Source of the DNA: Acidithiobacillus sp. | Lineage (GTDB): Bacteria > Pseudomonadota > Gammaproteobacteria > Acidithiobacillales > Acidithiobacillaceae | Assembly: GCA_028065135.1 (NCBI GenBank) | Contig: JAPTWR010000198.1 | Location: 1-11,088, forward strand | DNA length: 11,088 bases | Direction: 5' to 3' | Shown here: one piece after another, positions 1 through 9,509 of the stretch | Layout of the letters: each line of letters starts with the position of its first letter | Numbering within the stretch: the first letter of the stretch is position 1 | Notes under the pieces: model-generated | The model's input: only the letters and a program-made list of their open reading frames with translations | What the model was told of the DNA's origin: nothing | The model's database searches: none | Translations under genes and position numbers: made by a program

Positions 1-45
1 CTGAAAATCCTCGTGTCGGCGGTTCGATTCCGTCCCTGGGCACCA
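1..45 (+). tRNA. tRNA-Phe (GAA), 3' part
   Basis: The first 45 bases read as the 3' half of a tRNA. The anticodon loop is CTGAAAA with anticodon GAA, followed by the 3' anticodon stem TCCTC and a 5-nt variable loop. The T arm is GGCGG/TTCGATT/CCGTC (one G-U pair), followed by the acceptor strand CCTGGGC, discriminator A and an encoded CCA at 43-45. The 5' half lies outside the window. The integrase gene ends 6 bases downstream on the opposite strand, so this tRNA 3' end is the likely attachment site of the element. Confidence 0.93.
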
Positions 46-1313: not shown

Positions 1314-1940
1314 CTACCCCCCTACAATGCAGCGGGTTGCCGGATGAACTCTCCCCGTCCGCTTCAGCAACTGCTCCACCAACACCGGGAAATCCATGAC
1401 GTCATCAATGACCGTCACCCCATGCTCCGGCGTCTCCAGACCTTCATAGCCGCAGTCCAACAGTGCAGATACCAGGACCATCCCCAGAGCGGCATTGACG
1501 TTGGCGGGATGATCGTCCAGGAAGGCAACAGCGCCCAAATGATGCAGGACATCCGCCTTTTCGTCGGGATGGGTCGCATGGCCAACACACACAATACGGG
1601 CGGCAGGAATCAAACCCGCGAGGTTTTCCGCCCGAGCAGCATGGCGTCGTTCATCGATGCTGGTCACCGCCCATACCGTGCAGCCAAGGTCCTCCAGCGC
1701 GTACACCAGATCGGCAGCAGGCAGGTACAGCGGCAGGCGGTGCCACTCGTCGGCATGGTAGGCCCGCCACACTGCATCACATTCCGCCGCGCTCAGGTTA
1801 TAACGGTCGCGCAAGTGGAAGTGGCCGCCCACCCGGGGAATCTCCCGGCCCAGGACCTGCTCGGCGCATTGACGCCAGTGACCGTCGAAATCGGTCAACA
1901 CCTGATCCACATCGAGAACGATGTTGGTTTCAATATGCAT
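1314..1940 (-). CDS. HAD-superfamily hydrolase (phosphatase/nucleotidase-like)
   Basis: A 208-residue HAD hydrolase. All four family motifs are present. Motif I is LDVDQVLTDFD, with nucleophile Asp10 and acid/base Asp12. Motif II is the Ser/Thr of AVTSIDERR. Motif III is the Lys of HPDEKADVL, and motif IV is the acidic pair in FLDDHPAN. The closest type by look is the deoxyribonucleotidase/small phosphatase group, acting on a phosphorylated small molecule in the cytoplasm; the substrate cannot be told. The start ATG at 1940 has AAGGA seven bases upstream and overlaps the previous gene's end by 11 bases, so translation is likely coupled. The reading frame is open to 2096, but those extra residues look non-coding. 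A nucleotide-processing enzyme inside an integration operon could serve nucleotide salvage or act as an accessory cargo gene; this is inference. Confidence 0.85.
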   Translation of the reverse strand: MHIETNIVLDVDQVLTDFDGHWRQCAEQVLGREIPRVGGHFHLRDRYNLSAAECDAVWRAYHADEWHRLPLYLPAADLVYALEDLGCTVWAVTSIDERRHAARAENLAGLIPAARIVCVGHATHPDEKADVLHHLGAVAFLDDHPANVNAALGMVLVSALLDCGYEGLETPEHGVTVIDDVMDFPVLVEQLLKRTGRVHPATRCIVGG

Positions 1941-2163
1941 GACATATTCCTTGCTGCTGGTTGAGCCGTTCTCGTGCCATCTCCCATGCCTTCCGCAGTT
2001 CCAGGGGGGTGTCTTCCAGCCGGTAGCCCCTTCTGAGAGCCGCTCCGATGCTGGTCTCGAAGGTGACATGGGCGCCCTGGACCTCGATGGTGCCATCCGT
2101 CCTCATCTGCAGGATGGGAAGGCGGTTGCCGGTGGGGCGGATCAACATACCGAGCGGTTGCAT
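1930..2163 (-). CDS. Small unknown protein, 77 aa
   Basis: I do not recognise this 77-residue protein. It starts at ATG 2163 behind a near-perfect ribosome site (AAGGAGGT, six bases before the ATG), which decides the start although the frame is open farther upstream. The first 40 residues look like beta-strands (LIRPTGNRLPILQMRTDGTI) and the last 35 like one or two charged helices (LELRKAWEMARERLNQQQ). There is no signal peptide or membrane segment. It overlaps the HAD gene by 11 bases and sits 28 bases after the preceding small gene, so it belongs to the same leftward operon. Function unknown. Confidence 0.78.
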   Translation of the reverse strand: MQPLGMLIRPTGNRLPILQMRTDGTIEVQGAHVTFETSIGAALRRGYRLEDTPLELRKAWEMARERLNQQQGICHAY

Positions 2164-2191
2164 GGTGCTACCTCCTTTGCAAAATGACGGG

Positions 2192-2425
2192 TTATGCCTT
2201 ATACCCATGGCAGCGCAGGACATCCGCCATGTTGGAGCCTTCCCAGGACCCCGGACGGTTAATGACCATCCCGGCGTCTTCCAGGAGCATAGCGGCGAGC
2301 TTCCGCACCGTGAGTGGGCCGTGGCTGTTGAAGGGATCTGGCCCGGCATCGGCGTTGATCTGTTTGACCAGATCCACAAGGTCTGCGGCGGTCTGATCGT
2401 CGATTTCGACCTGGATGCGTTTCAC
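2192..2425 (-). CDS. Small unknown protein, 77 aa (GTG start)
   Basis: An unrecognised 77-residue protein. The frame could also begin at a TTG at 2440. The GTG at 2425 is preferred because GGGGAGGA lies five bases before it and because it overlaps the stop of the previous gene as GTGA. The sequence begins with a basic strand (VKRIQVEID), followed by a helix rich in Asp/Ala/Leu, then a second helix around TVRKLAAMLLEDAG. This strand-helix-helix order recalls ribbon-helix-helix DNA-binding proteins, but the likeness is weak and I do not claim it. No Cys or membrane segment suggests another role. It is one of four consecutive small genes of almost equal length in the leftward operon. Confidence 0.75.
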   Translation of the reverse strand: MKRIQVEIDDQTAADLVDLVKQINADAGPDPFNSHGPLTVRKLAAMLLEDAGMVINRPGSWEGSNMADVLRCHGYKA

Positions 2426-2619
2426 GGGTTTCCTCCCCAAAGCAGCCGGCGGCGTGCGGAAGAAGTGGATCCGTGCAGCACTATCCCGATGCGATCAAAC
2501 CCCCGGAACAGAAAGAATCCTCTGGGCGCGCACGGGAGTATCCGGCAAAGCAGCAACTCGGAACGGCTCCGTTGCTCCGGGTCCTCCCTCGTGGTTATGA
2601 ACAGGCGGGTGCGCTGCAT
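2422..2619 (-). CDS. Small arginine-rich protein, 65 aa
   Basis: A 65-residue ORF with no recognisable family. It is rich in Arg, with a hydrophobic patch in the middle (LLLCRILPC, GFFLFRGF). Composition alone would not prove it real. The support is positional: its ATG overlaps the stop of the upstream gene as TGATG, and its TGA overlaps the GTG of the downstream gene as GTGA. Translation can therefore pass through all three by stop-start coupling. No own ribosome site is obvious. It may act mainly to couple translation across this stretch, or be a small cationic or membrane-associated peptide. Confidence is lower than for its neighbours. Confidence 0.55.
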   Translation of the reverse strand: MQRTRLFITTREDPEQRSRSELLLCRILPCAPRGFFLFRGFDRIGIVLHGSTSSARRRLLWGGNP

Positions 2620-2852
2620 CAGAGCGCTACCTTCTGCACCGTGCCGGCGCGTGAGACCATGGCCATGAGGTCGACAATGGGTGTGGAGCGATCGAAGAGG
2701 AAACTCAGTACTGCGCCGTCGCGGTAGGCGACGGAAACCGGTGCGTGTTTTTGAGAGAATTTGAGAGGGATTAGGTGCAGTGGGACAACCCCGTCCGCAT
2801 TGGGGTGAAACCCTTGCCTGATTGGTTCACCATTGAGCGTGGTTCTTTGCAT
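2619..2852 (-). CDS. Small unknown protein, 77 aa; first gene of leftward operon
   Basis: An unrecognised 77-residue protein, the first to be translated from the leftward operon promoter. The ATG at 2852 has TGGAGA about ten bases upstream, a slightly long but acceptable spacing. The sequence alternates short hydrophobic strands and loops (PLHLIPLKF, PVSVAYRDGAVLSFLF) and ends in a short helix (IVDLMAMVSRAGTVQKV), suggesting a small beta-rich fold. Its stop overlaps the next ATG by one base. Being first in a repressor-controlled early operon is where phages and satellites often place small host-takeover or anti-defence proteins, but nothing in the sequence itself shows that role. Confidence 0.72.
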   Translation of the reverse strand: MQRTTLNGEPIRQGFHPNADGVVPLHLIPLKFSQKHAPVSVAYRDGAVLSFLFDRSTPIVDLMAMVSRAGTVQKVAL

Positions 2853-2902
2853 GGCTATTGGTCTCCATGATGCCGCGCGGGATGGGCGGCTTCGATGAAG
2901 AA

Positions 2903-2930
2903 ATTATAACCGCAAAGGTTATTATGTCAA
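2903..2930 (-). promoter_or_regulatory. Leftward operon promoter (PL-like)
   Basis: On the minus strand, TTGACA (2925-2930) and TATAAT (2903-2908) are separated by 16 bases. Both hexamers match the sigma-70 consensus exactly. Transcription would start near 2896 and enter the small-gene/HAD/xis/int operon after a leader of about 45 nt. Inverted repeats overlap both hexamers, so a strong promoter held down by a repressor is the natural reading. Confidence 0.85.
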
Positions 2931-2945
2931 CATAATGGTTATAAC
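2906..2945. promoter_or_regulatory. Operator cluster at leftward promoter
   Basis: Three dyads lie side by side. ATAACC-GCAAA-GGTTAT (2906-2922) covers the -10 edge and spacer. ATTATG-TCAA-CATAAT (2921-2936) covers the -35. GTTATAAC (2938-2945) lies just upstream. The stretch 2931-2943 (CATAATGGTTATA) matches 12 of 13 bases of the Cro-side promoter at 3790-3802. The likely binders are the CI-type repressor and/or the Cro-like protein encoded next door; that assignment is inference. Confidence 0.75.
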
Positions 2946-2965
2946 AACGACAAGTACCTAATCCA

Positions 2966-3730
2966 TCACCTCATTGGTCTGCCGCCACTACGCTCCAAGT
3001 AGCCTCCCCAGATCTCCACGGAATCTAAGCGGTTCTCAGGGACTGAAAAAGGAGCGTATACCGGGTCCTGGTTGATGGAGCTAACCCGCAATGATCCGTC
3101 CGGGAGCCGGTGAACCATTTTAACCATTACTTCAGCGTCTACGCGCAGGACAAAAGTACACAATCGTGGATCTGTCACGCCCGGTCCGGGTGGAACGCGC
3201 CGACGGGTGTCTACAACAATCCAGTCATTGTCAAAAATGAAGGGGCTCATGCTTTCCCCTCGCACCCGGTACGCCTTGCACGCGTTCGGCACACAACGTC
3301 TAGTCACAAAGAAATCAGCGTCGTATAGTCTCAACTTCTTTTCTGGTGCATCAGTGACAACTAGCCGATTACCCGCTCCAACTTCCAGTAATACTGCCTC
3401 TATGGCGGCATAACCATCCGGCACCGGTTCCTCGCCTGGATACCACGCACTGACATCCACACTTTCAGTCACACCAGACTTTTCCAACTGGCTGCGAATG
3501 CCCTGTCCTCCAAGTGCATCAAGGGTCTCAGCAGGAACTCCCAGTATATTGGATAACCTGACCAGCTCCTTTCTGGGAACCCCGCGCTCCTCCCAGTGTT
3601 GATAGTTCTGTGCATCTTTGAGCTGGAGAACATCTAGCGCATAGCGGCGCTTGGATAAGCCGCGTTTCTGCCTGTCCGATTCCAGCATGGCAATAGCAAT
3701 TGTAGATCCTGTAGGTTTTCGGTTTTTCAT
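2966..3730 (-). CDS. CI-type repressor: XRE HTH plus S24 (LexA-like) peptidase
   Basis: This 254-residue protein has a phage-repressor layout. Residues 10-75 form a helix-turn-helix of XRE type. The linker spans about 80-110. The C-terminal S24 domain has the catalytic Ser160 in GESMSP and Lys204 in EVMVKMV, 44 residues apart as in LexA/CI proteins. An Ala-Gly pair at 119-120 sits at a plausible self-cleavage distance before Ser160. Family knowledge says such proteins repress lytic or excision promoters and self-cleave when RecA is activated by DNA damage. ATG at 3730 is chosen over an upstream GTG at 3769 because AAGGGGA precedes it. It diverges from the Cro-like gene and separates the two arms of the element, so it probably controls both promoters and may control its own. 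Confidence 0.92.
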   Translation of the reverse strand: MKNRKPTGSTIAIAMLESDRQKRGLSKRRYALDVLQLKDAQNYQHWEERGVPRKELVRLSNILGVPAETLDALGGQGIRSQLEKSGVTESVDVSAWYPGEEPVPDGYAAIEAVLLEVGAGNRLVVTDAPEKKLRLYDADFFVTRRCVPNACKAYRVRGESMSPFIFDNDWIVVDTRRRVPPGPGVTDPRLCTFVLRVDAEVMVKMVHRLPDGSLRVSSINQDPVYAPFSVPENRLDSVEIWGGYLERSGGRPMR

Positions 3731-3751
3731 GCGTTGATTGTTCCCCTTAGC

Positions 3752-3780
3752 GTATAAGCAGGGAAGCACCGCTGTGTTGA
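3752..3780 (-). promoter_or_regulatory. Possible repressor promoter (PRM-like)
   Basis: On the minus strand, TCAACA (3775-3780, 4/6 to consensus) and TTATAC (3752-3757) are 17 bases apart. A start near 3745 would give a leader of about 15-18 nt beginning at the repressor's AAGGGGA ribosome site. Its -35 overlaps that of the rightward promoter at 3777-3782, so the two promoters would compete. It is weaker than the other two promoters, and this call is tentative. Confidence 0.4.
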
Positions 3781-3804
3781 CAGTGTCACCATTATGGTTA
3801 TACT
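3777..3804 (+). promoter_or_regulatory. Rightward promoter (PR-like) with embedded operator
   Basis: TTGACA (3777-3782), a 16-base spacer and TATACT (3799-3804) make a near-consensus sigma-70 promoter. The spacer contains the palindrome ACCATTATGGT (3788-3798), and 3790-3802 matches the leftward-promoter operator. The expected start site is about 3811-3812, which coincides with the ATG of the Cro-like gene. It would drive the replication module. Confidence 0.82.
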
Positions 3805-3811
3805 TTGCCTC

Positions 3812-4036
3812 ATGAATGGACTTGACCGTGCAGTGTCACATTTTGGCTCCCAGTCATCGCTCGCGCGCACGCTAGGAGTTTGCCCAATGGCAGTTAGCCA
3901 CTGGCGGCGTCGAGGAGTTCCCCTCGCCCGCGCCATCGCCATCGAGCGCGCCACCGCCGGCGTTGTCACCCGTGCCGAACTCCGACCCGACATTTTCGGC
4001 CCCTTGGATGAGATCAGAGACCGGGGAGCCACATGA
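3812..4036 (+). CDS. Cro/YdaS-like transcriptional regulator
   Basis: This 74-residue DNA-binding protein fits the YdaS/Cro group. The helix-turn-helix is around SQSSLARTLGVCPMAVSHW, followed by RRGVPLARAIAIERAT and the family-typical tail VVTRAELRPDIF. In phages this protein opposes CI and favours the early/lytic programme. The frame also has an ATG at 3794, but that lies inside the promoter spacer, so ATG 3812 is used. No ribosome site lies before either ATG. With the promoter at 3777-3804 the transcript should begin at or next to the ATG, implying a leaderless mRNA. It faces away from the CI-type repressor, and its stop overlaps the next small ORF as ATGA. Confidence 0.88.
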   Translation: MNGLDRAVSHFGSQSSLARTLGVCPMAVSHWRRRGVPLARAIAIERATAGVVTRAELRPDIFGPLDEIRDRGAT

Positions 4037-4167
4037 GACACCAATCGACTACTACTACGACTTCTCTGCCAGGAAACGGGGGCACCCGGATTGCGTTTCC
4101 AGTCGCGCGATCATGCCTGGCGCCTATTCGCACGGCTGGGAAGGCTGGAAAAGACCATGCCGAGTGA
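4033..4167 (+). CDS. Small ORF, 44 aa, between cro-like and initiator genes
   Basis: A 44-codon ORF whose ATG overlaps the stop of the Cro-like gene (ATGA) and which has GGGGAG five bases upstream. That ribosome site is better than the one for the larger gene after it. It ends 11 bases inside the start of the DUF1376-type gene, so translation could be coupled through it. The peptide begins MRHQSTTTTTSLPGNGG and ends with a short basic stretch; no family is recognised. It may be a real small protein or a translational relay to the initiator gene. Confidence 0.5.
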   Translation: MRHQSTTTTTSLPGNGGTRIAFPVARSCLAPIRTAGKAGKDHAE

Positions 4168-5152
4168 TGCACAAAAACTGGATTGTTCGGCGCTTCCGCC
4201 CCCACCTGTATCAGCCGACATTGATCTGCGTTCCTATTGCTGGATGAAGCTGGACCTGAGCCGACTCCATTCCAGCGACTTCATCCACCTGGCCAGCAAT
4301 GAGGAGTTCGGCGCAGCGGTAAAGCTGTGGACCGAATCCATGCGGCAGGTGCCTGCTGGCAGTCTTCCCAACGATGACAGGATCCTGGAGTGCCTCGCTG
4401 GATATCGGGGTTCTCTCCGACGGTGGATGAAAGTCAAAACGATTGCATTGCATGGCTTCTCCCTTTGCTCCGATGGCCGCCTGTACCATCCCGTGCTTGC
4501 GGAAATGGTACTGGATGCCTGGGGCAACAAGACCCAGCAACCGACATCAAGCCCCTCGGACCCGCGCGCCAAGGATCGCGAGCGGCTTCGTCGCTGGCGG
4601 GCGGCACAAAGGGCCAAACAGGAAAGCGCTCAGTCTATCAGAACTGAGGAAGCACACTCTACCCAAGCCGATGAAACGATTGAAACGTCTCAAGGCCGTT
4701 TCACTGAAACGTTTCCAGAAACGGCTGAAACGTTTCATAGAAAAGAAGGAGAGGGAGAAAAGAGAGAGAGAAGAAACGTTAGTGACGTTTCCGAAACGGT
4801 GGGTGAAACGTTTCAGGAGACGCCACCCACAGAGCCCTCTCCACTGCCGACCGCAACCCGCGAAGGCACGTTATGCAAGAAACTACGGGCACTTGGTGTC
4901 CGTGCGGCCCCTCACATGGTCGTTGTGCAGGAGATGTGTGCACGCCATTCCGATGAGCACATCCTGGCTGCGGCGGAGATCGCCCTGGAGAAAAAAGGCG
5001 GCGGAATCCACGTCGGCTACATCTCTGCAATGCTGAAAGATCCTGGGAAATCTTCAGGGAAAGGAGGAAAGAGCCAGCCGGCAGCGGGGCCGCCCAACCG
5101 CTCTCTGCTGCCGCCCGTCGCCGTTGCCAAATCTCATTATGTCAGACTGTAG
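4157..5152 (+). CDS. DUF1376-type replication initiator with internal iterons
   Basis: A 331-residue protein in the position of a phage replication initiator. Residues 27-122 match the DUF1376-like pattern (WMKLDLSRLHSSDFIHL, then GAAVKLWTES and LPNDDRILECLAG). Residues 135-155 are very basic. Residues 173-222 are a low-complexity linker with repeated Glu-Thr and Glu-Thr-Phe. Residues 236-298 form a second folded domain (KKLRALGVRAAPH through HVGYISAMLKD), the part often found with primosome/DnaT-like proteins. ATG 4157 is chosen because upstream residues in the frame start only at a TTG and look non-coding; its ribosome site is weak, which fits coupling to the 44-aa ORF. The linker DNA contains the repeat cluster described separately. 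The next gene is a helicase loader, as in lambda O-P. Confidence 0.8.
   Translation: MPSDAQKLDCSALPPPPVSADIDLRSYCWMKLDLSRLHSSDFIHLASNEEFGAAVKLWTESMRQVPAGSLPNDDRILECLAGYRGSLRRWMKVKTIALHGFSLCSDGRLYHPVLAEMVLDAWGNKTQQPTSSPSDPRAKDRERLRRWRAAQRAKQESAQSIRTEEAHSTQADETIETSQGRFTETFPETAETFHRKEGEGEKRERRNVSDVSETVGETFQETPPTEPSPLPTATREGTLCKKLRALGVRAAPHMVVVQEMCARHSDEHILAAAEIALEKKGGGIHVGYISAMLKDPGKSSGKGGKSQPAAGPPNRSLLPPVAVAKSHYVRL
4673..4814. repeat. GAAACG iteron cluster with purine tract: putative replication origin
   Basis: Thirteen GAAACG hexamers, counting both strands, lie in 142 bp. Forward copies begin at 4673, 4682, 4706, 4718, 4727, 4773, 4793 and 4805. Reverse copies begin at 4697, 4710, 4731, 4786 and 4809. 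Three pairs form the perfect palindrome GAAACGTTTC (4706-4715, 4727-4736, 4805-4814), and one forms CGTTTC-C-GAAACG (4786-4798). Between the groups, 4739-4776 is 38 purines in a row. Copies occur in more than one codon phase, so a repeated protein motif alone does not explain them. Iterons plus a strand-asymmetric tract inside an initiator gene mirror the lambda origin. Confidence 0.72.
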
Positions 5153-5162
5153 GAGAGCCGCC

Positions 5163-6017
5163 ATGGAAAAGAAGTCCAATATCCACCATCAGCCATCCGT
5201 CCCTGCGGGCGATGCTGCCAGGGATCTCCTTGCCAAATGGGGATTCGACTCTACCAATGAGGCGATCCTGCCCGACCGTCATCCCCAGTACCGCGAGTGC
5301 GCGCGCCATGGCCACTATCCGATCTCCATGGTGGATGAGCGGGACGTCATCCGCTACCTGTCACCGGTCTGTCCGGTGTGCGCGGCGGAGCATGCCTCCC
5401 GCCGGCTCATGGAGAGCGCGGCCATCCCAAAGCGCTACCTTGACTGCGGCTTCGACAACTACGTGGTTGAGGTCCCGGGTCAGCAGACGGCCCTCGACGT
5501 CTGCCGGGATTACGCAGATCATTTCGAAGAGCGCGCCCAAAAGGGATCCTGCCTCATCCTCTGCGGGAATCCTGGCACGGGCAAGAACCACCTGGCGTCT
5601 GCCATCGCCCACGTGGTGCTGGCCAAAGGGTACAGCGTGCTCCAGGTCACGGCCTACGACATCATTGCCCGGATCCGCCAGACCTGGCAGCGGGGAATCG
5701 GCAACAGTACGGAGCTGGAGGTTATCCGTGGGTTTGCGGAAGTGGGCCTGCTCATCATCGACGAGGTCGGGAAAACCTTCGGCAGCGATGGTGAGCGGGT
5801 GCATCTCTTCGAGGTGATCGATCACCGATATCGCGACCTGAAGCCGACCCTCATCCTGTCCAACGAGAATATGGAGGGCGTGGAGAAATACCTGGGTCCG
5901 GCTGCCTTCGACCGGCTGTGTCAAAATGGCGGGCTGCTGCTCTTTGACTGGCAGAGCCATCGCCGGGGGAAGGGGTGCAAATCCGATACGGTTATCTGTC
6001 TGCGGGGTGAATCATGA
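5163..6017 (+). CDS. dnaC: DnaC-like helicase loader (AAA+ ATPase)
   Basis: This 284-residue ATPase should load the replicative helicase onto the element's origin. Visible motifs are Walker A GNPGTGKN (135-142), Walker B LLIIDEVG (196-203), the HRYRDLKPTLILSN stretch with sensor Asn (221-234), and AAFDRL with an Arg suited to sensor 2 (247-252). Before the ATPase domain, Cys46/His49 and Cys70/Cys73 form a probable zinc site typical of phage DnaC relatives. ATG 5163 has AGGAG seven bases upstream, and an earlier in-frame ATG at 5124 lies inside the previous gene. The gap to the initiator gene is 10 bases, and the stop overlaps the next gene as ATGA. Length and motifs are those of an intact protein. 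Confidence 0.93.
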   Translation: MEKKSNIHHQPSVPAGDAARDLLAKWGFDSTNEAILPDRHPQYRECARHGHYPISMVDERDVIRYLSPVCPVCAAEHASRRLMESAAIPKRYLDCGFDNYVVEVPGQQTALDVCRDYADHFEERAQKGSCLILCGNPGTGKNHLASAIAHVVLAKGYSVLQVTAYDIIARIRQTWQRGIGNSTELEVIRGFAEVGLLIIDEVGKTFGSDGERVHLFEVIDHRYRDLKPTLILSNENMEGVEKYLGPAAFDRLCQNGGLLLFDWQSHRRGKGCKSDTVICLRGES

Positions 6018-7210
6018 ACAGAAATCATGGGCAGCACCTGCTGATGGATGATTTTTCAGAAGGTTCCCCCAAGCTGAACCCTCATCCCGCCCGCTCCGCC
6101 TACGTCCGAAGCGCGACCAGGAACATGGCATCCTACCTGATCGACCTTGGCCCATTCTTTTCAGAGCCAAAGCGATTTCTGGAAGACCTGCGCGGGAGTG
6201 ACTTTGCGCCGAAGGGATACGACTGCAGCGCACAGGTGGCCATCCGCCTTATGCGCTGGTCGCAAAGCATCCAGTTGACCCCCCGACAAAATCACACGAT
6301 GAACCAGATCATCTCTGAGGCCATTCGGCGTGGAGCCGCGATCATCGAATCCAAAATCAGGACGGCTGAATGGTCTATACCAGATCATCGCGACGATCAT
6401 CACGATCTTGCCGTCACGGCGGCCACCAAGGCATTGCAGCACTTTACGGAGAAGCACGACCTGACAACGATGCCGCACCCCAATATGGCGATATTCGTTG
6501 ACGTGCACACCCGGTTTGCTTCCCGTGATGCCATGGAAGATTTCATTTATCGAAAACGGCTCAATGCGGAATTCGTGTTGCCCCACGAACCGACGTTCTC
6601 AAAAGCATCGCTGGAAAGAGCCATCCGGCAGAGGCGATCGGAGCTCAAGCATCTCTCCGGAGAAAAACGCCAGAAGAAAGTGCGGGAGCTGGAAAGATTG
6701 GAAGCCACACTGCATGGAGCGCGAACAGAGGTTCGCCTGGAATATGCGCTGGAAGAAAGGGGAGACCATGAGGCACGAGGCAGTAGCGAGCGACTTTCGC
6801 TGGAGGAGCAGGAGTCCATCGCGGTTGGAGGTATCGACCTGGAAGAGGAAGACGACAGTTATGAGATGCCCGCCAACCAGCGGGAGTTCCTGGATCTCCT
6901 GATTCAGGTGGGCAGGCAGCAAATCGCTGCAAGGCAGCTCATCCCTTACCTGGTCGAGGCCAGGGAGTACCGCGCCATTCTCGGTCTTCTTCGGGTGCTG
7001 AAGAAAACCGATGAAATCAGCCTTGAAGCAGGTTCGCTGCGTGAACTGCTGGGTAATCGAAACCTGGCCGATATTCGAAAGAAGGTCCTGCGCGTTGGCC
7101 GGGCCGACAGCCGTGAAGTGGTCTCCCTTTTCGAGTCATGCAAGACATACCTTCGTGGGGAGAATGATGAATGTAAGGTGCTGGCTGCACTACAGGTGGC
7201 TTCCGTATGA
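6014..7210 (+). CDS. Unknown 398-aa protein, faintly sigma-factor-like
   Basis: I do not recognise this protein with confidence. It is linked by ATGA overlaps to the helicase-loader gene before it and the methylase gene after it, so it is part of the replication operon. Residues 95-145 are helical and contain DHHDLAVTAATKALQHF, which recalls sigma region 2.1-2.2. Residues 175-245 are a highly charged, probably coiled-coil stretch (KRQKKVRELERLEATL). Residues 260-285 are acidic. Residues 305-362 end in a Leu/Arg-rich helical region (LRVLKKTDEISLEAGSLREL) that could be a helix-turn-helix like sigma region 4. There is no Walker motif, zinc site or membrane segment. A divergent sigma-like or primosome-accessory protein is possible; neither is shown. 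Confidence 0.8.
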   Translation: MNRNHGQHLLMDDFSEGSPKLNPHPARSAYVRSATRNMASYLIDLGPFFSEPKRFLEDLRGSDFAPKGYDCSAQVAIRLMRWSQSIQLTPRQNHTMNQIISEAIRRGAAIIESKIRTAEWSIPDHRDDHHDLAVTAATKALQHFTEKHDLTTMPHPNMAIFVDVHTRFASRDAMEDFIYRKRLNAEFVLPHEPTFSKASLERAIRQRRSELKHLSGEKRQKKVRELERLEATLHGARTEVRLEYALEERGDHEARGSSERLSLEEQESIAVGGIDLEEEDDSYEMPANQREFLDLLIQVGRQQIAARQLIPYLVEAREYRAILGLLRVLKKTDEISLEAGSLRELLGNRNLADIRKKVLRVGRADSREVVSLFESCKTYLRGENDECKVLAALQVASV

Positions 7211-8097
7211 GCGTGCATCCGCCATTCCCCTGGCTGGGTGGCAAGGGGAAACTGGCTGACCAGATTCTTGCCCGGCTTCCCGAGCCGTCGCGGGAGCTGA
7301 CCTATGTTGAACCCTTCTTTGGCGGCGGGGCGGTATTCTTTGCCCGTCGCCCCTCGGGCATCGAGGTCATCAACGATGCCAATGGCGAGATCGTGACCTT
7401 CTTCCGTGTGCTTCGTGACCACACGGATGAACTGATCCGGTATTTGCAGAACACCCCCTACTCGCGCCAGCTGTTTTATGAGTGGCGGGCCATTCCGGAC
7501 CCTGCAAGCCTGCCAGACCTCGAACGCGCCGCCCGGTTTTTCTATATCGCCCGGTCCGCGTTTGCCGCCGAATCCACCCGCAAAAATCCGGCGTGGGCCT
7601 TTGCCAAGGTTTTTGACAATAAGGCCCGGTCCATGGCCACCGTCATTGATTCGGAATTGCGATTGGTTCGGGATCGGCTGCGGTATGCGCTGATCGAGAA
7701 CGATGATGCCATTGCGGTGGTCCGGAGATTTGATAGCCCATCCGCCGTCATCTACTGTGATCCACCTTATCTCCAGTCTACCCGCAGAGACGGGCAGTAT
7801 GCCGATGAGATGACTGACCAGGATCACGAAAACCTGCTTCGGGTGCTCTGCGCATGTGATGCCTATGTCGCGATCTCCGGCTATCCCAGTGATTTATATG
7901 CGGGTCATTTGGAATCCGGGCAAGGATGGTCTTTTGTGGATATTGCCCACTCCTGTCATGCGAACCGGTCAGGGCAAGCCGGTGAAGATATTGATCGGGA
8001 GCGGACAGAAAGGATCTGGATGAATCCGCGCCTTACGCAGTGGTATGAGCGGCATGCTCCGCGCCAGTGCTCCCTGTTGGATCTGTGTGCAGTGTGA
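7207..8097 (+). CDS. dam: Dam-type DNA adenine methylase (D12 class)
   Basis: A 296-residue adenine-N6 methyltransferase of the D12/Dam class. Conserved motifs appear in family order: [10 protein letters not shown] (7-16), SAM-binding EPFFGGGAV (35-43), catalytic DPPY (185-188), and TERIWMNP (267-274) near the C-terminus. Residues 60-180 hold the target-recognition region. Phage relatives usually methylate GATC or a nearby motif; the exact site here cannot be read from the sequence. The ATG overlaps the previous stop as ATGA. In a replication operon such an enzyme can protect the element from host restriction or mark newly made DNA. No restriction partner gene is adjacent, which favours an orphan methylase. 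Confidence 0.92.
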
Positions 8098-8115
8098 CCC
8101 ACTCCCGATCTATAC

Positions 8116-8138
8116 CGAACCGAAAAAAGAACGGTTCG
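8116..8138 (+). promoter_or_regulatory. Hairpin upstream of ssb
   Basis: CGAACCG (8116-8122) and CGGTTCG (8132-8138) form a 7-bp stem around a 9-nt A-rich loop. It lies 10 bases before the ssb ribosome site AAGGAG. There is no U-run after it, so it is not a usual terminator. It may shape translation of ssb or be a binding site. Confidence 0.35.
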
Positions 8139-8159
8139 TCATCTCTCAAGGAGAAAGTC

Positions 8160-8654
8160 ATGGCTGGAGTGAATAAAGTGATCTTGTTGGGCCATCTGGG
8201 GCGAGACCCGGAGATGCGGTACATGCCAGATGGGACGGCGGTCGCCAATATGACCATCGCCACGTCGGAGTCCTACAAGGATCGGGACGGCAACCGCCAG
8301 GAGCGTACCGAGTGGCACCGCGTTGCACTCTTCGCGAGGACGGCGGAAGTCGCCGGGGAGTATCTTCGCAAGGGGAGCCAGGCGTACGTCGAAGGGCGTA
8401 TCCGCACCAGAAAATGGACCGATAAGGACGGTCAGGAGCAGTATTCCACGGAGATCGTGGGCGATCGGCTCCAGTTGATCGGTGGGCGCCGCGCCGGGGC
8501 CGACGGCGGCAATCCAGCGCCACAGCATGGTGGTGGGGGTGGCGGGGACATGGGTGCTGCACCGATGGAGGAATTTGACGACGATATTCCGTTCATCACC
8601 AAGGCGGAAACCCTCTGCCAGCCGCGTCGACTGCTTCGTCGAGTGCAGTTCTGA
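8160..8654 (+). CDS. ssb: Single-stranded DNA-binding protein with extended C-terminus
   Basis: A 164-residue SSB that should coat single strands at replication forks. The OB-fold covers residues 1-112, with family signatures [23 protein letters not shown] and [12 protein letters not shown] Gly-rich linker follows (about 112-134), then the acidic tip EEFDDDIPF ending at residue 145. In ordinary SSBs this tip is the very end of the protein and docks partner enzymes. Here 19 further residues follow (ITKAETL to RRVQF), basic rather than acidic. ATG 8160 has AAGGAG six bases upstream. A 62-base gap separates it from the methylase gene. The extension could come from a lost stop codon or a small insertion; the OB-fold itself looks intact. 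Confidence 0.95.
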
Positions 8655-8796: not shown

Positions 8797-8931
8797 ATGA
8801 CAACAAGCATCACCGAGGCCAAAGTTCTCACCATCAAGCAGGCCGCCGACTACTTAAAGGTCACTGAGCGGATGATCTACAGACTAGCCGCAGGCAAGAA
8901 AATCCCTGTCTACAGGGCCGTGCCCGTGTAG
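8797..8931 (+). pseudogene. N-terminal half of an excisionase-family HTH protein
   Basis: The 44-residue product contains a clear helix-turn-helix of the MerR/excisionase type (LTIKQAADYLKVTERMIYRL, then AAGKKIP). The wing expected after it (a Gly-Gly-Thr-Trp-type strand and a final helix) is missing, and TAG at 8929 closes the frame. Family members of this type are usually around 60-70 residues. The ATG lies about 16 bases after a TTGACA (8775-8780) in AT-rich DNA, with no ribosome site. The same reading frame continues after the TAG into the methylase fragment, so the stop or junction lies between two formerly separate pieces. Confidence 0.7.
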
Positions 8932-8979
8932 ACTGCTCCGCACATCCAAAATCGATCCAAAACACAAGGCACCAAGAAC

Positions 8980-9183
8980 GTGGCCCTCGCTTACGCCAAA
9001 GAAAATGCGCTTAACGCAATTTGTCCTTACTTCACGATGGTTCCGCTCGAGTACCCGAATCGGGTACTTGCCAAGCATCGAAAGGAAAAAGCCGTTGTGC
9101 TCGATCCATTTTGTGGCCGGGGCACCACCTTGTTCTCTGCGCGTAAATTTGGATTTTCTGCTTGGGGGATCGACTCATCGCCC
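8980..9183 (+). pseudogene. 5' fragment of a site-specific DNA methylase (N4/N6 class)
   Basis: About 68 residues of a DNA methyltransferase of the N-4/N-6 class. It includes a conserved N-terminal block (YAKENALNAICPYFTMVPLE) and the SAM-binding motif LDPFCGRGTT, then GFSAWGIDSSP. Homologues are several hundred residues long and carry a catalytic DPPY or SPPY motif, which is absent here. Coding similarity stops at about 9183, where the opposite strand begins to read as helicase. The coding character may begin slightly before the GTG at 8980, from about 8941. The product cannot be an active methylase. Confidence 0.75.
9050..9068. repeat. 19-bp near-perfect palindrome
   Basis: AGTACCCGA (9050-9058), a single A, then TCGGGTACT (9060-9068) form a 9-1-9 inverted repeat inside the methylase fragment. 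No role is evident. A dyad of this size in 11 kb can occur by chance. Confidence 0.5.
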
Positions 9184-9479
9184 GAGTGAAAGGTGCCGAG
9201 GTACATCTCGTTCAGATTGAACTTGATGTCCAGATCGGTAAGGCGGTTCGAGATGCGCGTGGTCAGCTCGCGCGCGGCCTTGTCGGTGAAGGTGACGACA
9301 AACAACGACTCCGGCGCGACGCCTTTCTGCGTGATGAGATAGACGATGCGCTCGACCAGCGTGAAGGTCTTGCCGGAGCCGGGGCCCGCGATGATGAGCA
9401 CCGGGCCTTCGGTGGTGAGGATGGCTTCGAGCTGCTGTGGGTTGGACTTGGATTGGAGGGCGGGCGCGCTAGCCGTCAT
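9183..9479 (-). pseudogene. 5' fragment of a UvrD/Rep-type helicase
   Basis: About 99 residues matching the N-terminus of superfamily 1A helicases: the Q-motif region SNPQQLEAIL, Walker A AGPGSGKT (31-38), motif Ia VVTFTDKAARELTTRI (61-76), and the YLGTFHS signature where the fragment stops. The remaining several hundred residues, including the Walker B and later helicase motifs, are absent. ATG 9479 follows GAGGGGGG about five bases upstream. At 9183 the sequence switches to the oppositely oriented methylase fragment. Family members occur in DNA repair and in many defence systems; the parent gene's role is unknown. Confidence 0.82.
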
Positions 9480-9509
9480 TCTACCCCCCTCGCTGTCATC
9501 TACCGTCAC

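Follow-up and report, generated by a model that had tools for sequence, protein, structure and literature searches.

Replication origins have been described inside the initiator genes of several plasmids and phages. In pSK41, the N-terminal domain of Rep binds four boxes located centrally in rep, so that the linker of the protein is encoded by the origin, and the natural chimera pPR9 has had about 500 bp, covering the N-domain and the origin, replaced while its C-domain retains >97% identity (PMC5703833). Lambdoid phages, including Stx relatives, carry the origin midway along the initiator gene, as iterons and an AT-rich tract (PMC7466680), and oriL of SPP1 is described as direct repeats within gene 38 with an AT-rich unwinding element and the loader gp39 (PMC6316719). 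The E. coli Rac prophage has an active origin, oriJ (PMC3945230). Here we analyse an 11,088-base contig of Acidithiobacillus sp. (JAPTWR010000198.1; the whole stretch is called the window), where a repeat array at 4673-4814, inside a gene of the DUF1376/YdaU family, is probably the replication origin of a mobile element, read by the product of the same gene. The parts of the gene and its adjoining partner are as follows (pLDDT, predicted local distance difference test score).

4157..5152, forward strand: initiator gene, DUF1376/YdaU family; 331 residues from the ATG at 4157, the open frame running from a TTG at 4091
4193..4531, forward strand: N-terminal domain, candidate DNA-binding; residues 11-120 have a pLDDT of 84-97 per block of ten
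4652..4843, forward strand: linker DNA, encoding residues 166-229, predicted disordered (pLDDT <50); holds all 13 repeats
4673..4736, no strand: left repeat array, eight GAAACG/CGTTTC copies, two full palindromes
4739..4776, forward strand: purine tract of 38 nt, candidate melting site by computed instability
4773..4814, no strand: right repeat array, five copies, one full palindrome
4853..5149, forward strand: C-terminal domain, putative helicase/loader contact, common to both repeat classes described below
5163..6017, forward strand: DnaC-like helicase loader (phrog_50, E 4.4e-64; IstB-like ATPase domain, E 1.8e-15)

By its homologues, the gene at 4157-5152 encodes a DUF1376/YdaU-type replication protein. 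Its own PF07120 match (E 8.4e-6, 26.5 bits) lies under the cut-off of 30.1, and its PHROG match is phrog_22470, 'replication protein' (E 4.3e-33). Homologues at E 0.001 numbered 1047, the best 120 of which were listed, and PF07120 is present in all of the best 44, including P0001, which is 97% identical to the initiator. Among the matches listed, P0002, P0004, P0008 and P0012 begin at the ATG at 4157 or a few residues away. Structure comparison of the N-domain gave weak matches to initiator and winged-helix domains.

A reading of this stretch made from the letters alone (the sequence-only reading) had reported 13 GAAACG copies, three palindromes and a 38-nt purine run at 4673-4814, followed by the gene order initiator, then helicase loader; all were found again on recounting, and the Pfam and PHROG matches confirmed the gene order. 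The 13 GAAACG/CGTTTC copies are arranged round the purine run, which the first hexamer of the right array (4773) overlaps at its end, and the full GAAACGTTTC palindromes start at 4706, 4727 and 4805. The whole window has 18 hexamers compared to an expected mean of 5.73, and at least 18 were reached in 0/200 dinucleotide shuffles. The purine run is the longest in the window, the runner-up being 18 nt, and within the gene the 40 bp of lowest computed stability start at 4737 (-1.234 kcal/mol per step compared to a gene mean of -1.504); elsewhere in the window, six places have a lower computed stability still. The Glu-Thr frame holds seven of the eight forward hexamers, the exception being 4773, while the five reverse hexamers lie three in frame 1, one in frame 0 (4697) and one in frame 2 (4786). 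The earlier reading was therefore right that most forward copies are in the Glu-Thr phase and that 4773 is off-phase, but 4786 is a reverse copy, not a forward one as it had said. Two extra hexamers (4073 and 4094), absent from the list of the earlier reading, lie just 5' of the likely ATG; this pair is complete in 2/9 loci including the window, although the stretch compared in L004 is possibly not the matching one. A shift in GC-skew, which the earlier reading had proposed looking for, was not seen at the purine tract.

Compared to the known systems, this plan is most like that of the pSK41-type Rep (RepA_N) and pPR9, which share a three-part initiator, central boxes and a swap of the N-domain together with the origin. 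Here too, from the anatomy, the trees and a junction at 4854-4856 (see below), the repeats are central and the N-domain and repeats are exchanged, with the C-domain kept. Unlike in pSK41, 13 six-base units surround a purine tract, a loader gene adjoins and the exchange is recurrent. The initiator contains no RepA_N Pfam domain, PF07120 being its sole Pfam match up to E 0.1, and the fold similarity of its N-domain to RepA_N initiators (5kbj/4pql) is weak. With lambda O and ori-lambda, the locus shares repeats and an easily melted tract inside the initiator gene, the instability here being computed. The lambda record annotates four 18-bp iterons, whereas the 13 six-base units here (6-bp/10-bp palindromic) flank the tract on either side. 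The loader here is DnaC-like; lambda P is not known to belong to the DnaC AAA class. The label 'lambda-like' given by the earlier reading is apt as a way of working, while no protein similarity to lambda O was detected: the O-type Pfam model had no match to the initiator up to E 0.1, and remote homology reached an hhalign probability of 0.1%, in a low-power comparison where even Rac YdaU, annotated as DUF1376, reaches just 4.4%. SPP1 gp38/oriL is alike in its intragenic direct repeats and helicase loader and differs by a second origin, oriR. The Rac genes ydaS-ydaT-ydaU-ydaV are alike in their order and, by RefSeq annotation, in DUF1376; we found no text stating that oriJ is located in ydaU, nor, in the literature searched, most subscription papers being outside its scope, any report of an origin inside a DUF1376/YdaU gene. 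The explanation we favour is an origin within the gene, recognised by the gene's own product and operating in the manner of lambda O and, closer still, of pSK41 RepA, with an initiator that Pfam places in a different family. To judge by the searches, the repeat unit, the assignment to a DUF1376 gene and the recurrent exchange are new.

We examined selection on the DNA in nine close genes (the window, L001-L004, L067-L069 and L072; L003 is partial and L001 is on a viral contig), each of which carries an array of 13-15 hexamers. Synonymous shuffles (n=1000) never gave the best hexamer more than 9 copies per 200 nt (mean of 4.38), compared to 13 observed, so the array exceeds what the protein and its codon usage can provide. 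When linker codons for the same residue were compared between the window and its eight relatives, pooled, synonymous third-base changes numbered 0/167 inside the window hexamers compared to 100/504 in the rest of the linker, the eight comparisons sharing ancestry and so not being independent; in the most divergent gene, L004, they were 0/20 in hexamers and 20/37 elsewhere in the linker. With a looser count, taking codons that touch a hexamer as inside, the figures were 14/198 and 86/473, with 179/840 in the N-part and 122/623 in the C-part. Across the nine genes, GAAACG encodes 74 of the 77 Glu-Thr dipeptides, spacer arginines are AGR codons in 30/30 cases compared to 31/203 elsewhere (pooled), and a purine run of 35-38 nt is present in 8/9. 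Around 4773-4798, the window encodes RRNVSDVS and L001 encodes EETLITFP, since in L001 the tract is one base shorter and a later spacer one base longer; both hexamers remain 13 apart, and the 4773/4786 pair is kept in a different reading frame. The first hexamer of this pair is likewise kept out of frame with the window in L003 and L072. The hexamers are conserved at the DNA level independently of codon choice. This bears out the sequence-only reading both in its claim of selection on the DNA, through the shuffles and the third bases, and in the comparison it had proposed, as the hexamers persist (0/167, and the frame switch in L001) while the linker protein changes.

The repeat cluster is nearly unique to these DUF1376 genes. 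When 17 genomes of the genus were searched with GAAACGTTTC-N0-30-GAAACG, seven DUF1376 genes (mostly from the nine) accounted for 45 of the 46 matches, with a single one outside, in G014, while a control pattern read backward had 3 matches in the same genomes. The more loosely built GAAACG array of L007 escapes this search, which had 0 matches in its genome (G004). A GTAACG cluster pattern was less specific, with 9/26 matches in DUF1376 genes by coordinates. Elsewhere in the genus, a frame unrelated to DUF1376 and phosphoesterase-like by eye, in L144 (G017 C1:1721272-1721448), contains a coding tandem repeat of the 12-bp unit GTAACGCCTGAT.

A second group of Acidithiobacillus genes (L005, L006 and L008) carries GTAACG round an A/G-rich tract. 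We labelled 45 aligned proteins by their linker peptide, ET or V/IT (22 and 23), and found that the mean identity of the N-domain is 78% in one group, 76% in the other and 52% across the two, compared to 82%, 83% and 81%, respectively, for the C-domain. In trees of 44 rows, the partial P0012 being left out, the repeat-class label changes once on the N-domain tree (support 100/100) and 12 times on the C-domain tree (shuffled mean of 15), where a one-clade constraint for the label was rejected (approximately unbiased test, p 1.4e-26). Over 1-1351, the DNA of L005 shares 95.8% identity with that of the window, and over 4854-8594 it shares 90.2%; the interval 1351-4854 has two short matches, and none from 2899 to 4854. 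Similarity also restarts at 4854-4856 in L006, L007 and L008, just 3' of the last hexamer (4814). As judged from these trees and alignments, the N-domain and the repeat class are inherited jointly, and the C-domain is freely exchanged, within the Acidithiobacillus-type proteins. The relatives thus seem to exchange the recognising half of the protein and its site as one block. The joint inheritance fits a recognition of the repeats by the N-domain, and physical linkage alone could also be its source. As another sign of domain exchange, P0053 has a different N-domain (PF13730) joined to a similar C-domain; in addition, L007 and L008 each have two DUF1376 matches side by side.

Two sets of DUF1376 genes were then used to look at embedded repeats across the family. 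Set A, chosen by similarity, had 86 DUF1376 frames from 92 records, 46 of which were kept after dropping short ones and near copies, including four of the close GAAACG genes (the window, L004, L069 and L072). Set B was sampled by Pfam scans that covered as many as 398 genomes, where 32 loci were reduced to 23 by removing eight (L100, misplaced, and seven short tails) and L080, which duplicates L079. The two sets overlap in six loci (L079, L086-L089 and L091), and 150 of 197 available frames served as controls. The repeat test had three versions: an exploratory one with the commonest hexamers and no correction for their selection, a whole-tail one and a best-hexamer-in-200-nt one, which was designed after seeing the others. 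This last synonymous test, at p 0.01, was passed by 20/46 in set A, 6/23 in set B and 4/150 controls; L088 and L091 pass in both sets, 4/17 loci of set B alone pass, and one of the passing controls (L042, minus strand) is, by coordinates, antisense over a DUF1376 gene. The whole-tail version, requiring both strands at p 0.01, gave 14/46, 3/24 and 4/150. Lambda O passes the synonymous repeat test (p 0.001), and the DUF1376 gene of the tailed phage Magia (L065) has an embedded array (p 0.002). The strict test was not passed by Rac ydaU (p 0.08) or by the phages Hali and Alize (0.35 and 0.41), although the latter two nonetheless have, by eye, short repeats ahead of a purine tract. At least 31 purines in 36 were found in 15/46 of set A, 2/23 of set B and 3/150 controls, and a purine excess over synonymous shuffles at p 0.01 in 7/46, 2/23 and 2/150. 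By these sequence tests, embedded repeats are common in DUF1376 genes, and not universal.

The repeat units of the family include GAAACG, GTAACG, GGGACA and GGAA types, and across the family at large the same types turn up with distant N-domains, while close N-domains can have different ones, as in the sisters L030 (GAAACG) and L035 (GTAACG), joined at 100/99. A family-wide coupling of repeat class to N-domain was rejected as weak, with 11 changes compared to a shuffled mean of 16.5 (minimum of 12), or to 15.1 (minimum of 11) without three near copies; we claim a strict coupling for the 44 Acidithiobacillus-type proteins only, as read from their sequences. The gene after DUF1376 is not always a loader, being a DnaB-like helicase in phi297 and RusA in Magia. 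Records with a protein match numbered 36 in the phage collection and 8 in the plasmid collection, with 0 covering 80% of the query, and the plasmids gave one partial match at the DNA level. By eye, the Pseudomonas phages phi297, Hali and Alize (L066, L108 and L109) have GGGACA/GGGAGA purine runs after the repeats, followed in Hali and Alize by TATTTAAAAGAT; Hali also has a C-run/G-run stretch, and a similar C/G stretch is seen in Rac ydaU (L064). We would give even odds to the broader proposal that DUF1376 is a widespread proteobacterial initiator family with the origin inside the gene, where the N-domain and repeats would form one specificity cassette and the C-domain and loader another, the units being drawn from a small related six-base set (GAAACG, GTAACG, GTGACG, GGGACA and GGAA types). 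If true, comparing pairs of sequences only a few residues apart could reveal the code by which the DNA is recognised.

At the window itself, the DUF1376 N-domain would bind the GAAACG half-sites and the GAAACGTTTC palindromes that flank the tract on either side, and the bound complex may then melt the tract near 4737-4776, as its computed instability suggests. The C-domain, carried on the predicted disordered linker, would recruit the DnaC-like loader encoded by the next gene, which, from the gene order and the known systems, may place the host helicase. The anatomy, the conservation at the DNA level and the adjoining loader support in substance the origin reading that was first made from the letters alone. 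Several observations weigh against it: the complete frame change of the 4773/4786 pair occurs in one relative (L001) only; L003 and L072 shift the frame of the first hexamer only, with a spacing of 14; and L004 is without both of these hexamers and has a longest purine run of 12, in a spacer that is A-rich and 71% purine. For the first and last of these reasons, we put the probability of the origin reading at about 0.80 rather than 0.82.

The remaining probability falls mainly on other uses of the same repeats. They could be sites of the initiator, or of Cro/CI, for autoregulation or copy control and not a start site, as iteron handcuffing and autoregulation are known in plasmids and two hexamers (4073 and 4094) lie just 5' of the ATG; we regard this as unlikely, since that upstream pair is complete in 2/9 loci, compared to 13-15 internal copies in all nine genes, and a melting tract between two arrays would be unexpected for an operator. 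It is less likely still that a different protein binds the repeats as partition, packaging or transfer-origin sites. Clustered palindromes can serve all three, and in one relative type IV secretion genes follow within a few kilobases on the 3' side, but the repeat class tracks the initiator's own N-domain in 44 proteins with no exception, and tailed-phage DUF1376 genes such as that of Magia also have embedded arrays. That the array merely reflects a low-complexity Glu-Thr-Phe linker with biased codons, its DNA having no role, is very improbable: the 12-bp GTAACG coding tandem repeat in an unrelated frame of the genus indicates that such repeats can arise in coding DNA, yet 0/1000 synonymous shuffles reach the count here, the hexamers have 0/167 third-base changes, L001 keeps them across a frame change and copies are present on both strands.

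If the repeats are indeed the origin, DUF1376, a Pfam family of unknown function, gains a probable and concrete role, with its site mapped, and the locus becomes an example of an origin kept in coding DNA under a double constraint, on the protein and on the DNA. The relatives would then form a natural series of matched initiator/origin pairs, whose repeat unit has switched more than once. With such pairs, the residues that read each repeat could be tested directly, as could the idea that the adjacency of domain and site lets mobile elements switch replication specificity in one exchange.

The genes round the initiator and loader include the following.

2966..3769, reverse strand: CI-like repressor with an S24 peptidase domain (PF00717, phrog_4)
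3794..4036, forward strand: Cro/YdaS-like regulator (PF15943, PF14549)
8160..8654, forward strand: single-strand binding protein (PF00436, E 8e-39 for the frame 8067-8654; start ATG at 8160 chosen by eye)

On the 5' side of the initiator there are also an excisionase and a tyrosine integrase, the latter adjoining the 3' end of a tRNA-Phe(GAA) (window 1-45, identified by its match to L005 4740-4815), which is likely the attachment site. A search of the window and of 12 related loci for an attR copy of this tRNA end found none, L005 having just the copy at its own tRNA. The loader is followed, in order, by a gene with no family match, an adenine methyltransferase and the single-strand binding protein; the first of these, between loader and methyltransferase (6014-7210), encodes a 398-residue protein for which neither Pfam nor PHROG gave a match up to E 0.1. 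Past the same replication module, L002 (14864-19948) and L023 (8393-12644) differ in content, one of these relatives having type IV secretion genes (VirB8, CagX, TrbI and SLT) and the other a DUF4007 gene with a 1146-residue protein that has no Pfam match, perhaps, at a guess, a defence system. In the window, the region 3' of the single-strand binding protein (8797-9509) holds apparent remnants, named by eye: a short frame of helix-turn-helix type, a truncated frame resembling a DNA methyltransferase and, on the opposite strand, a UvrD-like fragment.
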